Shown here one piece after another: positions 6,647 through 19,806 of a stretch of DNA of 64,000 nucleotides; the stretch's first letter is position 1, and every line of letters starts with the position of its first letter. A program made the position numbers and the translations under genes. Under the pieces are notes generated by a model, which searched no databases, was not told the origin of the DNA, and saw nothing but the letters and a program-made list of their open reading frames with translations. Source of the stretch: Thermacetogenium phaeum DSM 12270 (GTDB lineage Bacteria; Bacillota; DSM-12270; Thermacetogeniales; Thermacetogeniaceae); NCBI RefSeq assembly GCF_000305935.1, contig NC_018870.1, positions 1,420,001-1,484,000 of the forward strand, read 5' to 3'.

Positions 6647-6687
6647 GGTCACAAAATAACACCTAAATAGAAGAAATTCCTTCTCCC

Positions 6688-6876
6688 TTCCAGACTTTAA
6701 CTGTCGGCTCCGGACTTTCACCGGATCAACCCGCTCTCTGAAGGCCCTGATTCCGGTCACAGTTGCCTTTTAACCGCGGGGCCTTTCTCGATCGGATATC
6801 GGGCTCGCGGGCTTACCTCTAAATGAGGATCACCGCCGGTGTGGAATTCCACCATCCCCCGAAGGTCCTTCCTGCA
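6688..6876 (-). promoter_or_regulatory. FMN riboswitch (RFN element)
   Basis: Read on the minus strand, conserved RFN blocks occur in order: ACCTTCGGGG, GGTGGAATTCCACACCGGCGG, GCCCGCGAGCC, TCCGGTGAAAGTCCGGAGCC and GACAGTTAAAGTCTGGA with the closing GGGAGAAGG. These are the junction and loop sequences of the FMN aptamer. With the downstream terminator it should switch ribD-ribE-ribBA-ribH off when FMN is abundant. The exact limits of helix P1 are uncertain by about 10 bases. Confidence 0.95.
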
Positions 6877-13539: not shown

Positions 13540-13605
13540 AAGTTGCCTCTTTATTGTGCTAAAATTATGGCACGTTTTTTTTTATCACTTCCGGGGAGGC
13601 AACTT
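13540..13605. repeat. 10-bp inverted repeat spanning a transposon gene start
   Basis: AAGTTGCCTC (13540-13549) and GAGGCAACTT (13596-13605) are perfect inverted repeats 46 bases apart. The likely ATG of the DUF6431-like gene (13567) lies in the loop. It could be a control hairpin or an end of the element. Confidence 0.6.
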
Positions 13606-14166
13606 GCTTTGCAGATCATCCATGACTTTGGAGTAACACCTGTAGAGTACAGCAACAGGAGAGAAAATAACGACTTTCCCTTCATCGATTCCTGTCCCAT
13701 GTGCAACGCCAAGGGCACCCTGAAGAAACACGGTTTTTACTCAAGATACGTCTTGTCCTTTAAGAAAGAACTGCAGATTGCTATCAGGAGATTCAAGTGC
13801 TCCTGCTGCAAGAAGACGTTCTCTGTCCTGCCTTCCTTTCTACTTCCTCACTACCAGCACACTGTGGGCTTCATCCTGGGATGCTTGAGAGGCCATTTTA
13901 TCTTAGGGAAGCTCAAAACGTACTACCAGAAGGTCCAGTTCTACAGGAGGCGGTTTCTCAAGAACCTGAAGGCGGTGGAGATGTTTTTCAGGGACCAGGG
14001 CTCAAAAGAGCAGATCCCGGAACCGGATCAAGACCATAAAGCTGCTGAAAATGATCAGGAGATGCGCCGCAGATTCCATGGACGAATCGGCTTTTTCCCA
14101 AAGGTTCTTCAGTCATTTTCATCACAGCTTTATGGCACTTTAATTTTACTATTCCTCCGGGGCTAA
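13567..14166 (+). CDS. DUF6431-like zinc-finger protein of an IS481/Mu-like element
   Basis: About 199 residues from the ATG at 13567; a TTG-started frame reaches 13543, and no clear ribosome binding site decides. A zinc ribbon is visible: CPMC near residue 42, then FKCSCCKKTFSVLPSFLLPHY, the pattern I associate with DUF6431 proteins encoded next to a DDE transposase and an AAA ATPase. The C-terminal third is Lys/Glu-rich with a hydrophobic end. It is the first gene of a three-gene element whose other two genes are frameshifted. Confidence 0.6.
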   Translation: MARFFLSLPGRQLALQIIHDFGVTPVEYSNRRENNDFPFIDSCPMCNAKGTLKKHGFYSRYVLSFKKELQIAIRRFKCSCCKKTFSVLPSFLLPHYQHTVGFILGCLRGHFILGKLKTYYQKVQFYRRRFLKNLKAVEMFFRDQGSKEQIPEPDQDHKAAENDQEMRRRFHGRIGFFPKVLQSFSSQLYGTLILLFLRG

Positions 14167-14279
14167 TGGAAAGAACTTTTTAAACACAGAACTTTTGCAT
14201 GGAATCTTTCTCCTCTCGGCTTTAGACTTTTACGTGTGGCCGAACGGCACCAAAACCAATGTTTCAGGAGGAAGATCCT

Positions 14280-15542
14280 ATGGACGAAAAGGAAAGAGAA
14301 AAGGTAGCGCTGTTTCGCTTTGGCCTGATTGCCCCTATCCTGCAGGGGCAGGTGACCAACATCCGGGAGTATCTGGCCGAAGTAGCCGAAAGGGTGCACC
14401 AGGTCCCCTACTATGGCCCGAAGGAGTACACCCCCAAGACCATCGAGTGCTGGGTGAGGGATTACCGGAGGGGGGGTTTGAAGGGCTTAAACCCAAAGCC
14501 CGTTCCGACAGGGGGCAGAGCAGGAAGATCCCCCCGGAGCTGCAGGAGAGGCTGCTTTCTCTGAGGAAGGAGCAACCCTGTATCCCGGTCTCGGTCTTTT
14601 ACGATCAGCTGATCGCCAAAGGGGTCATCCTCCCTTGTGACTTCTCTTACTCCTCAGTCTACCGGTTTTTGAAAAGACATGACCTGGTGAGGGGAGATAT
14701 TCGCTAGGAGAAGTCGCGAGCGCAAGAGGTTTGCCTACGACACCGTGAATGCGCTCTGGCAGGGGGATGTGTCCTACGGCCCCTACCTCAAGTTGAACGG
14801 CAGGAAGGTGCAGGCCTTCCTCTTTGCCTTTATCGACGACTGCTCGCGCCTCATCCCTTTTGCCCAGTTTTGTCTCTCGGGGAAATACGATTCGCTGAAG
14901 ATCGTCTTCAAGGAGGCGATCTTGCGCCGGGGGATACCCAGGATGGTTTACGTGGAAAACGGAAAGATCTACCACTCCGACCAGTTCCACGTGGTCTGCG
15001 CCTCTTTAGGTATCGCCCTCATCCACACCAGGCCTTATGATGCCCAGGCCAAGGGGAAAATCGAGAGGTTCTTTTTAACGGTGAAACAGCGCTTCTACTC
15101 CCGGCTGGAACCGGACAGTCTATCCTCTCTTGAATCCCTGAACCGGGCCTTCTGGGAATGGCTGGAGACCGATTACCACCGGAGCGTACACACTGCTCTG
15201 GGGATGAGCCCTTTGGACAAGTTTCTGTCCCAGGCAAGCCAGGTCAGAATGGTAGAGGACCCTGCTTCCCTGGAGCAGTTGTTCCTGCAGCGGGAGAGGC
15301 GCACCGTGAAGCATGACGGCACCATCTCCCTCAACAAGCGACTCTTCGAGGTGCCACCCCAGTTCATCGGGCAGAAGATAGAAGTCCGCTTCGACCCTGA
15401 GAATCCCGGCCGGGTGTTCGTCTTTGCCGGCGGTGTCAGGGTTGCCGAGGCGAAGCCTGTCAACCTGGCCGACAACGCCCGGGTGAAAAGAGACCGGTCA
15501 CTCTCTTTCGCCAGGATGCTTGATGAGGAGGGGAAAGGGTAA
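14280..15542 (+). pseudogene. IS481/Mu-like DDE transposase, two frameshifts and Asp-to-Glu change
   Basis: Starts at ATG 14280 (AGGAGG upstream) with a helix-turn-helix (PKTIECWVRDYRRGG). At the G7 run 14470-14476 the sensible reading moves to another frame (KARSDRGQSRKIPPELQE, PVSVFYDQL), and near 14700 it returns to the first (RKRFAYDTVNALWQGD). The rve domain follows: LWQGDVSYGPYL with the first Asp, FIDDCSRL, and YVENGKIYHS. The last normally reads YVDNGKIY, so the second catalytic Asp has become Glu (codon 14955-14957). KGKIERFF supplies the last Glu. The end overlaps the next gene (TAATG). Confidence 0.75.
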
Positions 15543-16337
15543 TGTACCGGGCGTTTTATTCCCTGTCAGGGGAGCCTTTCTCAAAAGGAATTGCACCGGA
15601 GAATTGCTTTTCATCGAGAAACTGGTCGGAGGCAAAGGCCAGGCTGCAGTACCTTGTGAAAGCAAGGGGAATCGGGGTACTGGTGGGGGAGCCGGGGTCG
15701 GGAAAGACCTTTGCCCTGCGCTCCCTTGCGGCAGGGTTGAACCCCGCCCTCTACAGAGTGATCTACCTCCCCCTGTCTACCGGAACGGTGATGGATTTTT
15801 ACCGGGGGCTGGCAGGCGGGCTGGGCGAGGAGCCAAAATTCCGCAAGATCGACCTCTTCGAGCAGATCCAGCGCTCTGTGCTCAACCTCTTTCAAGAGAA
15901 AAAGAGCACTCCCGTCTTTATCCTGGATGAAATGCACTTAGCTTCACCCAAGTTCCTGCTGGATTTGAGTATTCTCTTCAATTTCTCGATGGATTCGCTG
16001 AACCCGTTTGTCTTCGTTCTCTCCGGACTGCCGTTCCTGTTGAACCGCCTGGGCTTAAGCCAGACCCAGTCCCTCGCCCAGCGGGTGGTGATGCGCTACA
16101 AGATGGAACCTCTGGAGAGGGATGAGGTCAAGGATCGAACACCACCTGAAGCTGGCAGGAGCCAATCATACCCTGTTCACCGAGTCGGCTATCGAGGCCA
16201 TCGCTTCCAACTCCCGGGGCTGGCCGAGAATGGTGAACAATCTTGCCGGCACCGCTCTTATGCTTGGCGCTCAGCTCAAGGTGTGTCCTGTGGATGAGGA
16301 TATCGTCAGGCAGGCTGCGGGTGAGCTGGGGTTCTGA
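15542..16337 (+). pseudogene. AAA ATPase (ExeA/TniB-like) of the element, frameshifted
   Basis: About 265 residues over two frames. The first (15542 to about 16125) has Walker A GEPGSGKTFALRSL, Walker B VFILDEMHLAS and the sensor region FVFVLSGLPFLLNRL. After a one-base shift near 16125 the C-terminal lid continues to 16337 (SRIEHHLKLAGANHTLF, ASNSRGWPRMVNNLAGTAL). Such ATPases act as target-selection partners of Mu/Tn7/IS481-like transposases. It is translationally linked to the transposase by TAATG. The shift should inactivate it. Confidence 0.8.
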
Positions 16338-18328: not shown

Positions 18329-18426
18329 GAAATTAATTTTTAAAATCTATTTTCTATTTAGCCCCCTAACGAGATTGAACAGTTAGACCACAATCTGTTA
18401 CAGTTAAGTAAGGGGGTATGATTTAG

Positions 18427-18750
18427 TTGAACAGAAAACAATATTCACCAGAGATGAAAATACAGATCGTGAAAGAAACCCTGGAAACAGGCAATGCCTC
18501 GATCGTGGCCAGAAGACATGATATTGCACCCAGCCTGGTCGCCCGCTGGGCTAGGTGCTATAAAAGATACGGCACATTTTACTCGCAAAAGGAGGTACCA
18601 GGAACAAACGGCTCCTGTATTCCTCCTGATTACAAGAAGATAACAAAGGAGAATGAGCAACTAAAGAAACTGCTGGGCGAAAAAGACCTGGAAATCGCCA
18701 TTCTTCGTGATTTGTTAAAAAAAACGAACCTACCCTTCCCGATAAAATAG
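18427..18750 (+). CDS. IS3-family OrfA (HTH transposase subunit)
   Basis: 107 residues: MNRKQYSPEMKIQIVKE, GNASIVARRHDIAPSLVARW (helix-turn-helix) and a C-terminal leucine-zipper helix KENEQLKKLLGEKDLEIAILRDLLKK. This is OrfA of an IS3-family element. It starts at the TTG at 18427 with AGGGGG upstream. OrfB follows three bases later but is broken. The AAAAAAAC run at 18717-18724 is a plausible old frameshift site. Confidence 0.85.
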   Translation: MNRKQYSPEMKIQIVKETLETGNASIVARRHDIAPSLVARWARCYKRYGTFYSQKEVPGTNGSCIPPDYKKITKENEQLKKLLGEKDLEIAILRDLLKKTNLPFPIK

Positions 18751-18752
18751 CC

Positions 18753-19455
18753 GTGGCGCAAAAATGGATCTCTTTGGGATATAAAGTCTCCCTGGTTTTG
18801 CGGATTATCGGGATCAGCCGCTCCACGTATTACGCTAATTTAAAGCGCCAACCCAAACCCAGGATCTTTGCCGGCGGCCGGCCTAAATCCCATTATACCT
18901 TCACCAGCGATAACAAGGTGGTGAGCACGAACAGGTCAAAGAATGGTTGTGCGAATTAATTACCGCCGAAGGGTTTGCCTATGGATACTTAAAATTAACC
19001 CACTGCCTGCGCCGGAAGTTTCACCTGATCATTAACAAGAAAAAGGTGTACCGGCTTTGCAAGGAACTGGATATCTTAAGGCCGCAGCGGAAAATAAAGC
19101 GCAAACACCCCCGCCGGCTGGCCAGGAACCGGGTCATTACAGCTTCCAACCAGCTCTGGGAAGCCGATCTTAAATACGGCTACATTGCCGGGGAAGATAG
19201 ATTCTTTTTCATCATGCCGATCATTGACGTTTTTGACCGTTGCATTGTAGCTTACCATATCGGTTTGTCCTGTGAAGCGAAGGATGCTCGCGTCATGAGT
19301 TTACCAGCTATGCCGAAGCGTATGCAACGGTTGTCGACTTCATCCGCTTTTACAACGAAACCCGGATTCATTCAGCAACTAAATACTTACCACCGCTGGA
19401 ATGCTATCAACTGCTGAAAAACAACCAGGTAGAGTTAAAACCAGTAAAAGTTTAA
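18753..19455 (+). pseudogene. IS3-family OrfB with frameshifts and deletion of the catalytic core
   Basis: 18753-18870 gives the N-terminus (AQKWISLGYKVSLVLRIIGI, SRSTYYANLKR). A shift near 18930 continues in 18947-19310 (EGFAYGYLKLTHCLRRKF, NQLWEADLKYGYI with the first catalytic Asp, FFIMPIIDVFDR). Then the text jumps to FIRFYNETRIHSATKYLPPLECYQLL, ending at 19455. The stretch holding the second Asp and the Glu, roughly 80-100 residues, is deleted. The right end of the element may be near 19727 (GTCCAATTTCAGGGGGTCA); no matching left end was found. Confidence 0.8.
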
Positions 19456-19480
19456 CATGTTCTTTGGTGGGCCCTGGAGG

Positions 19481-19640
19481 TCTTTGGGCGGCGCCGTCAG
19501 GGAAGCCTTGACGGCCGGGGACCCCGCATAAAATGTGTTTTCCGGCGGGGCGTGCACACCTTGCCTACATGTTCCCCGGAGCCACCCCGTCGGTAGTTCC
19601 TGGCCTACCACCTGCGGGGTGGCAGTCAAGGCCGCCGCCT
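19481..19640. other. GC-rich multi-hairpin element, possible structured RNA
   Basis: Several perfect helices nest in 160 bases. GCCACCCCG (19581-19589) pairs with CGGGGTGGC (19615-19623) and encloses GGTAG/CTACC (19592-19596, 19605-19609). CCCCGC (19522-19527) pairs with GCGGGG (19545-19550). GCCTTGAC (19505-19512) pairs with GTCAAGGC (19625-19632), with GGCGGC/GCCGCC outside it (19487-19492, 19634-19639). A local alternative, GCCGTCA/TGACGGC (19493-19499, 19509-19515), excludes the long closing helix. It is not protein-coding as far as I can see, and I do not recognise a known RNA family. The strand is undecided. Confidence 0.6.
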
Positions 19641-19806
19641 TCCGATTAACCGATTAAACAATTCAATGATACTTTATGAAATAGTTAGCAACAAAGACTA
19701 ATTGTCCAATTTCAGGGGGTCAAGCCGTTTTAGTCTATTTTCGCAGAAAAAAGAGAATTAACATCCCCTGCACAACGAAGATCGGCTAAAAGACAAGTTT
19801 AAGGCC

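Follow-up and report, generated by a model that had tools for sequence, protein, structure and literature searches.

A conserved folded block within Bacillota insertion sequences, a candidate single-strand promoter or primer site

Results

Location of the block in Thermacetogenium phaeum

The window analyzed here is a stretch of 64,000 nucleotides (nt) from the genome of Thermacetogenium phaeum DSM 12270 (contig NC_018870.1, positions 1,420,001 to 1,484,000), and our subject is a structured block at positions 19458–19640 of that window (Table 1). An initial annotation had described 19481–19640 as a nested, bistable element located between a decayed IS3-family insertion sequence (IS) and rpe. 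The block was found instead to be internal to the IS: it begins at about 19455 and is flanked by the orfB stop codon and the right end of a defective IS3-family element (18354–19727), rather than being an independent element beside one. Based on comparison of the sequences of many copies, we on balance favor the reading that the block is a folded single-strand promoter or primer site carried by the IS, whose top strand would rebuild a sigma-A promoter and yield a primer RNA.

The host element had the hallmarks of the IS3 family, namely orfA and orfB with an rve-type transposase, imperfect inverted ends and a short target duplication, and related loci were assigned to IS3 by NCBIfam. The DNA of 19401–19720 is present in five copies in the T. 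phaeum genome, and four of the five element copies have matching 4-bp flanks (TTTT, TTTT, TTCG and CAGT). The right flank of the fifth copy, L006 (G000:C1, from about 2439380), is a CRISPR-like array with the repeat GTTTCAATTCCTCATAGGTACGCTGAGAAC. In the window copy and one other of the five, orfB has lost about 217 bp internally.

Fold and co-variation of the block

The fold that had been proposed for 19481–19640 proved real, as RNA folding gave -82.7 kcal/mol (z -3.17) and none of 200 shuffled sequences was as stable; the opposite strand had a similar stability (z -3.26). Three pairs of complementary arms were located where they had been described (19486–19493 with 19633–19640, 8 bp; 19505–19512 with 19625–19632, 8 bp; 19522–19528 with 19613–19619, 7 bp), as was an inner stem of approximately 9 bp near 19543–19552 and 19583–19593. 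A local hairpin at 19492–19514 that had been thought to compete with the closing helix does use bases 19509–19512, but it is poorly conserved among copies, the conserved repeat being instead the direct repeat R1/R2 described below.

Comparison of copies resolved four nested helices (P1, P2, P4 and P5) and a pseudoknot, P3, which joins the 5' arm to the loop of P5. The search for compensating base changes among relatives that the initial annotation had suggested was productive, with relatives found and strong compensatory change in their fold. Among 16 copies, 95.3% of cells were paired and 12 pairs had changed on both sides; among 30 copies the values were 92% and 26. Co-variation was 0.273 versus 0.127 in shuffles (0 of 500) and 0.06–0.09 when the pairing was slid along the alignment, a control in which paired cells dropped to 36–49%. 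RNAalifold recovered P1, P2, P4 and P5 unaided. G.T cells exceed A.C cells by 88 to 41, which favors the top strand as the one that folds, although the folding energies of the two strands differ little: DNA folding of one copy gave z -8.1 for the top strand and -6.4 for the bottom strand. A conserved mini-hairpin of the form CC-GNA/GNNA-GG bulges between P1 and P2 (columns 51–59 of alignment A3) and reads GCGAAGC in IS6-like copies.

The lack of coding signal was upheld, since block lengths differ by single bases (173–199 nt) and changes are compensatory, which rules out a coding region. The block also belongs to no family in Rfam, whose covariance models, including those for riboswitches, ribozymes, 6S RNA, group I and II introns and the HEARO/IS605 RNAs, gave no match to it; a riboswitch or other known RNA was rejected on this basis. 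A simple IS end was likewise ruled out, as the block is distinct from the inverted repeat and occurs in unrelated IS families.

Relatives of the block and their IS families

A DNA search of 398 Bacillota genomes identified relatives in about 16 other genomes at 67–89% identity, some of the matches being short or weak. A first covariance model matched 20 of the 398 genomes, and a second matched 43 of 113 genomes of one class (20 matches in a single genome) and 11 of 59 of another class. The transposases adjoining the blocks that scored above the NCBIfam cut-off were of the IS3, ISLre2, ISL3, ISNCY, IS481 and IS21 (IstB) families, and an IS6-like group scoring below its cut-off also adjoins the block. 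In most relatives the block is in sense orientation 3' of the transposase stop codon, often 0–15 nt away, with gaps of about 50–130 nt in IS21 and ISNCY. An IS110 recombinase, as would be expected for an IS110-type bridge RNA, was not found among the neighboring enzymes scanned, which were DDE transposases or IstB.

A tree of 52 blocks grouped them by IS family, yet it required 11 family changes (minimum 7), and the block of the window clustered with ISLre2 blocks (support 96/87). ISLre2 elements without a block exist (L115 and L120), and seven near-identical full-length ISLre2 copies in the T. phaeum genome (L112, L119, L126, L131, L135, L136 and L137) have only a shortened, decayed block with no -35 box; the reading frames of six of the seven are free of stops. 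Since such elements have no block or only a decayed one, the block is an optional module. On our favored reading, several IS families have taken it up in the interval that separates the transposase stop codon from an IS end.

With an IS6-like copy as the query, the block was also found on three Geobacillus plasmids (L194, L195 and L196), each with its own R1/R2 pair of about 8–11 nt; in L195 and L196 it is just downstream of an annotated transposase. The L066 copy as the query gave no matches in phages, E. coli or plasmids. Among individual loci, L055 (4071–4263, minus strand) is a chimera whose IS481-like left end and IS3 right end meet at the block, L058 is a second chimera, with an IS481-type left flank within an ISNCY element, and L078 is an antisense block adjoining an IS3 transposase with methylase-like genes on both sides.

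Promoter-like hexamers within the fold

Promoter statistics were compiled from 46 non-redundant copies. The 5' strand of P2 is TTGACA-like, with G at the third position in 37 copies and T in 8. P4 ends in TGG-T, followed by an unpaired A-N-A-A-T (T in 44 of 45, A in 45 of 46 and the last T in 45 of 45), so that a TANAAT-like hexamer is present with few exceptions. The three middle positions of this hexamer are the most variable, a distribution of conservation typical of a -10 box rather than of a helix. Pairs of P2 and P4 within the hexamers are nearly invariant, whereas neighboring pairs show four to six pair types.

The spacing of the two boxes differs between the arms. On the 3' arm, the would-be template strand, they are 17 nt apart in 39 copies and 18 nt in 7, versus 19–20 nt in most copies on the 5' arm (range 14–22). 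Pairing ends at -12, where there is a T:A pair in 39 of the 46, and the base opposite the -11 A is other than T in 40. An internal loop then spans -11 to +1, with a discriminator of 7–8 nt in 44 copies and an opposite loop, J5/4, of 12–14 nt, and P5 occupies the position of a downstream duplex. The two bases adjoining P5 are GT or GC in 40 of the copies, and the +1 nucleotide would therefore be a purine.

An upstream fork, a bubble and a downstream duplex make up the open complex of sigma-70/sigma-A promoters, and the predicted geometry of the block matches that arrangement. We know of no RNA function that predicts such a register of hexamers. Conservation in the fold is highest at the promoter hexamers, which are set at promoter spacing, and we therefore favor folded single-stranded DNA over a riboswitch. 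The initial annotation's suggestion of a folded RNA with a switch, or an element-end structure, holds insofar as the block is a conserved structured part of a mobile element with built-in alternative pairing, but a folded RNA or riboswitch is not the best reading.

The window copy lacks five nt, GGTGG, before TAAAAT in the 5' strand of P4 that are present in nearly all other copies. The extended -10 and half of P4 are therefore gone, and this copy is probably decayed and inactive.

The R1/R2 direct repeat

R1, at the 5' edge of the block, is identical to R2, in the P5 loop, over 8–14 nt in most copies, while the sequence of the pair differs from copy to copy (ACATGTTC in the window, and ACCTGTTCCC, GTATATCCC, GATATGACCC and CCTTTATATCTG elsewhere). 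The match of a copy's own R1 and R2 exceeded that between copies (0 of 5000 permutations), a value inflated by kinship among the copies. Mismatches were strongly asymmetric, T in R1 accompanying C in R2 29 times and the reverse occurring 3 times (38 and 0 in another count). This asymmetry would be expected if R2 is copied, because the strand copied from R2 carries G, which still pairs with T in R1 through G.T. L036 and L040 have apparent exact R1-to-R2 deletions, of the kind that recombination or strand slippage at the repeats would produce.

A consistent cis complement of the repeat was sought in the copies and not found. Comparison of the other internal loops with the flanks, for identity or complement, gave no match besides that of R2 with R1, J4/5 against the upstream 30 nt being weak (8 of 2000). 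In column-by-column co-variation with R1 the P4 pairs ranked highest, but with the columns out of register.

Discussion

A possible mode of action

We propose that the top strand, when single-stranded, would form a long hairpin in which a sigma-A promoter is reconstituted, with the -35 box in P2, a spacer, an extended -10 box at the end of P4, a pre-opened bubble provided by the internal loop between P4 and P5, and P5 as the downstream duplex. Transcription by RNA polymerase, starting at the P5 junction, would read through the 3' side of P5 into R2 and produce an RNA of about 25–30 nt. In elements that carry the block in sense, the product would run antisense to the transposase and could prime complementary-strand synthesis across the IS body. 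R1 lies outside the hairpin and is the same as R2, so that the RNA made on R2 could shift to R1 by annealing there and prime past the hairpin. Comparison of copies establishes the location, the fold, its co-variation, the hexamers, the constant 17-nt register of the 3' arm and the R1/R2 identity; action as DNA, use by the polymerase, primer synthesis and the relocation from R2 to R1 are all steps that we infer.

A broader proposal, which we put forward only tentatively and regard as rather doubtful, is that these blocks constitute an undescribed class of folded single-strand promoters in at least seven Bacillota IS families, in which a primer RNA, copied at its 3' end from R2, shifts that end to R1, making incoming or transposing single-stranded IS DNA double-stranded, and the R1/R2 identity is a built-in primer-relocation signal. 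A literature search of open-access papers found no description of such a module in IS elements. If unrelated IS families do share a single-strand promoter, IS elements would be selected for their behavior while single-stranded and may carry a switch that works only in that state, which would bear on IS spread by conjugation, transformation or replicative transposition; the R1/R2 pair offers a specific prediction on primer relocation.

Comparison with known systems

Known single-strand promoters belong to plasmids and conjugative elements and allow genes to act while the second strand is still missing. Those published are stem-loops that rebuild -10 and -35 boxes (PMC9849209), with a further precedent in PMC11541004, and sso elements are folded strands recognized as promoters that make a short RNA primer (PMC4595007). 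The block resembles the Frpo/ssi sites of the conjugative plasmids F and ColIb-P9, in which a stem-loop of one strand rebuilds the -35 and -10 boxes and a start by host RNA polymerase has been proposed. Unlike them, it is located on IS elements rather than in plasmid leading regions, has R1/R2 and a pseudoknot, and drives no known gene. With the RNA-polymerase-dependent sso of rolling-circle plasmids, as these are described, it would share a folded strand recognized as a promoter and a short RNA primer, and both have Gram-positive hosts; the block, however, is inside DDE-transposase IS elements and not on the replicon itself.

6S RNA has a similar length and an open-promoter-like bubble, but the block has no Rfam match, carries DNA promoter hexamers, and is multi-copy and mobile. 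IStrons, in which a group I intron is fused to IS elements (PMC4227781), also contain a structured nucleic-acid module that more than one Firmicutes IS family has taken up, whereas the block has no match to a group I intron or other ribozyme in Rfam and is located only 3' of the transposase gene. The MRSC-65-2 motif (PMC11109978) is likewise a structured mobile repeat sometimes near transposases; it has been reported from many phyla as one long stem with a UYCCGG repeat, in contrast to the five helices and pseudoknot of the block, which was found only in Bacillota.

Weighing of the explanations

Several observations weigh against a folded single-strand promoter. The folding z-scores separate the strands without a sharp difference, the permutation result for R1/R2 owes part of its strength to kinship, and the T/C asymmetry is mostly within the part of the repeat that also pairs with P3, where competition for P3 could explain it. 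In IS481 and two IS3 loci the block is antisense beside the 3' end of the transposase gene, and a primer would therefore extend away from the transposase. The block is also not needed for the spread of the seven full-length ISLre2 copies, because they hold only a decayed one. Finally, covariance model R2 gave nothing below E 2.9 against positions 1–50000 and 51000–68000 of the F plasmid (including much of its leading region), which counts against kinship with those sites but not against the mode of action, since the known members are themselves diverse.

An ordinary double-stranded promoter would drive transcription in the direction of the block, outward into a neighboring gene or, where the block is antisense, counter to the transposase gene, with an RNA beginning with the P5 hairpin. 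Outward promoters of IS elements are well known, and both the extended -10 and TTGACA are conserved; however, the spacer in a duplex is 19–20 nt, the constant 17 nt being confined to the folded 3' arm, and the paired arms, the unpaired bases starting exactly at -11 and the R1/R2 identity would be left unexplained. We consider this explanation unlikely. It is also quite improbable that the working form is a folded RNA, namely a structured 3' part of the IS transcript with control over transposase mRNA or with a 6S-like role in titrating RNA polymerase. The complex pseudoknotted fold, the many conserved unpaired letters, the tolerance of G.T and the frequent position directly 3' of the transposase stop codon would suit an RNA, but there was no Rfam match, even to the 6S models, the hexamers are of DNA type at promoter register, and the orientation is antisense in IS481 and the two IS3 loci.

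A bistable switch, based on competition between the R1 region and R2 for the P3 strand CCGGGG and on a ribosome at the transposase stop codon that opens or closes R1, appears very improbable. CYYTGG in R1 does resemble CCCCGG in R2, with T replacing C, and R1 begins a few nt past the stop codon in many sense copies. Most of the repeat nevertheless precedes the portion that pairs in P3 and lacks a consistent cis complement, IS6-like copies do not have the competing letters, and no ribosome would be there in antisense copies. The least credible account, to which we attach very little weight, is that the block has no function of its own and is a palindrome carried along passively, or a recombination joint that IS elements exchange. 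The chimeric copies L055 and L058, solo remnants and the deletions in L036 and L040 are as such a joint would leave them, yet compensatory change and the strict hexamer register have been maintained over great divergence.

Table 1. Coordinates of the IS3-family element and of the parts of its structured block in the window.
Feature	Position	Strand	Basis or remark
Target duplication TTTT (4 bp), left copy	18350–18353	.	Copy alignment; matching 4-bp flanks also in 3 of 4 other copies
IS3-family element, internally deleted copy	18354–19727	+	Imperfect ends CTATTTAGCCCCCTAA (left, from 18354) and GGGGGTCAAGCCG (right, to 19727); five aligned copies
orfA	18427–18750	+	Reading frames
orfB remnant	18753–19455	+	Internal deletion and frameshift; stop TAA 19453–19455
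Direct repeat R1, 5' edge	19455–19462	+	Repeat comparison
Structured block	19458–19640	+	Covariance-model match, E 4e-33
P1, 5' strand	19486–19493	+	Comparative fold
P2, 5' strand	19505–19512	+	Contains most of -35-like TTGAC(G), 19508–19513
P3, 5' strand CCGGGG, pseudoknot	19515–19520	+	Comparative fold
P4, 5' strand, shortened	19522–19528	+	5-nt deletion takes out extended -10 TGG
-10-like TAAAAT	19529–19534	+	Hexamer alignment
P5, 5' strand	19543–19552	+	Comparative fold
Direct repeat R2, central loop	19567–19574	+	Repeat comparison
P3, 3' strand CCCCGG	19574–19579	+	Comparative fold
P5, 3' strand	19583–19593	+	Adjoining T 19594 is the would-be template base for +1
P4, 3' strand	19606–19619	+	Comparative fold
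P2, 3' strand	19625–19632	+	Comparative fold
P1, 3' strand	19633–19640	+	Comparative fold
Target duplication TTTT (4 bp), right copy	19728–19731	.	Copy alignment

Other features of the window

Elsewhere in the window, a flavin mononucleotide (FMN) riboswitch was identified at 6674–6870 on the minus strand (Rfam RF00050, 101.6 bits). Reading frames pointed to a second decayed mobile element at about 13543–16337, with pieces of an integrase-core-like transposase followed by an AAA-type ATPase in overlapping frames.
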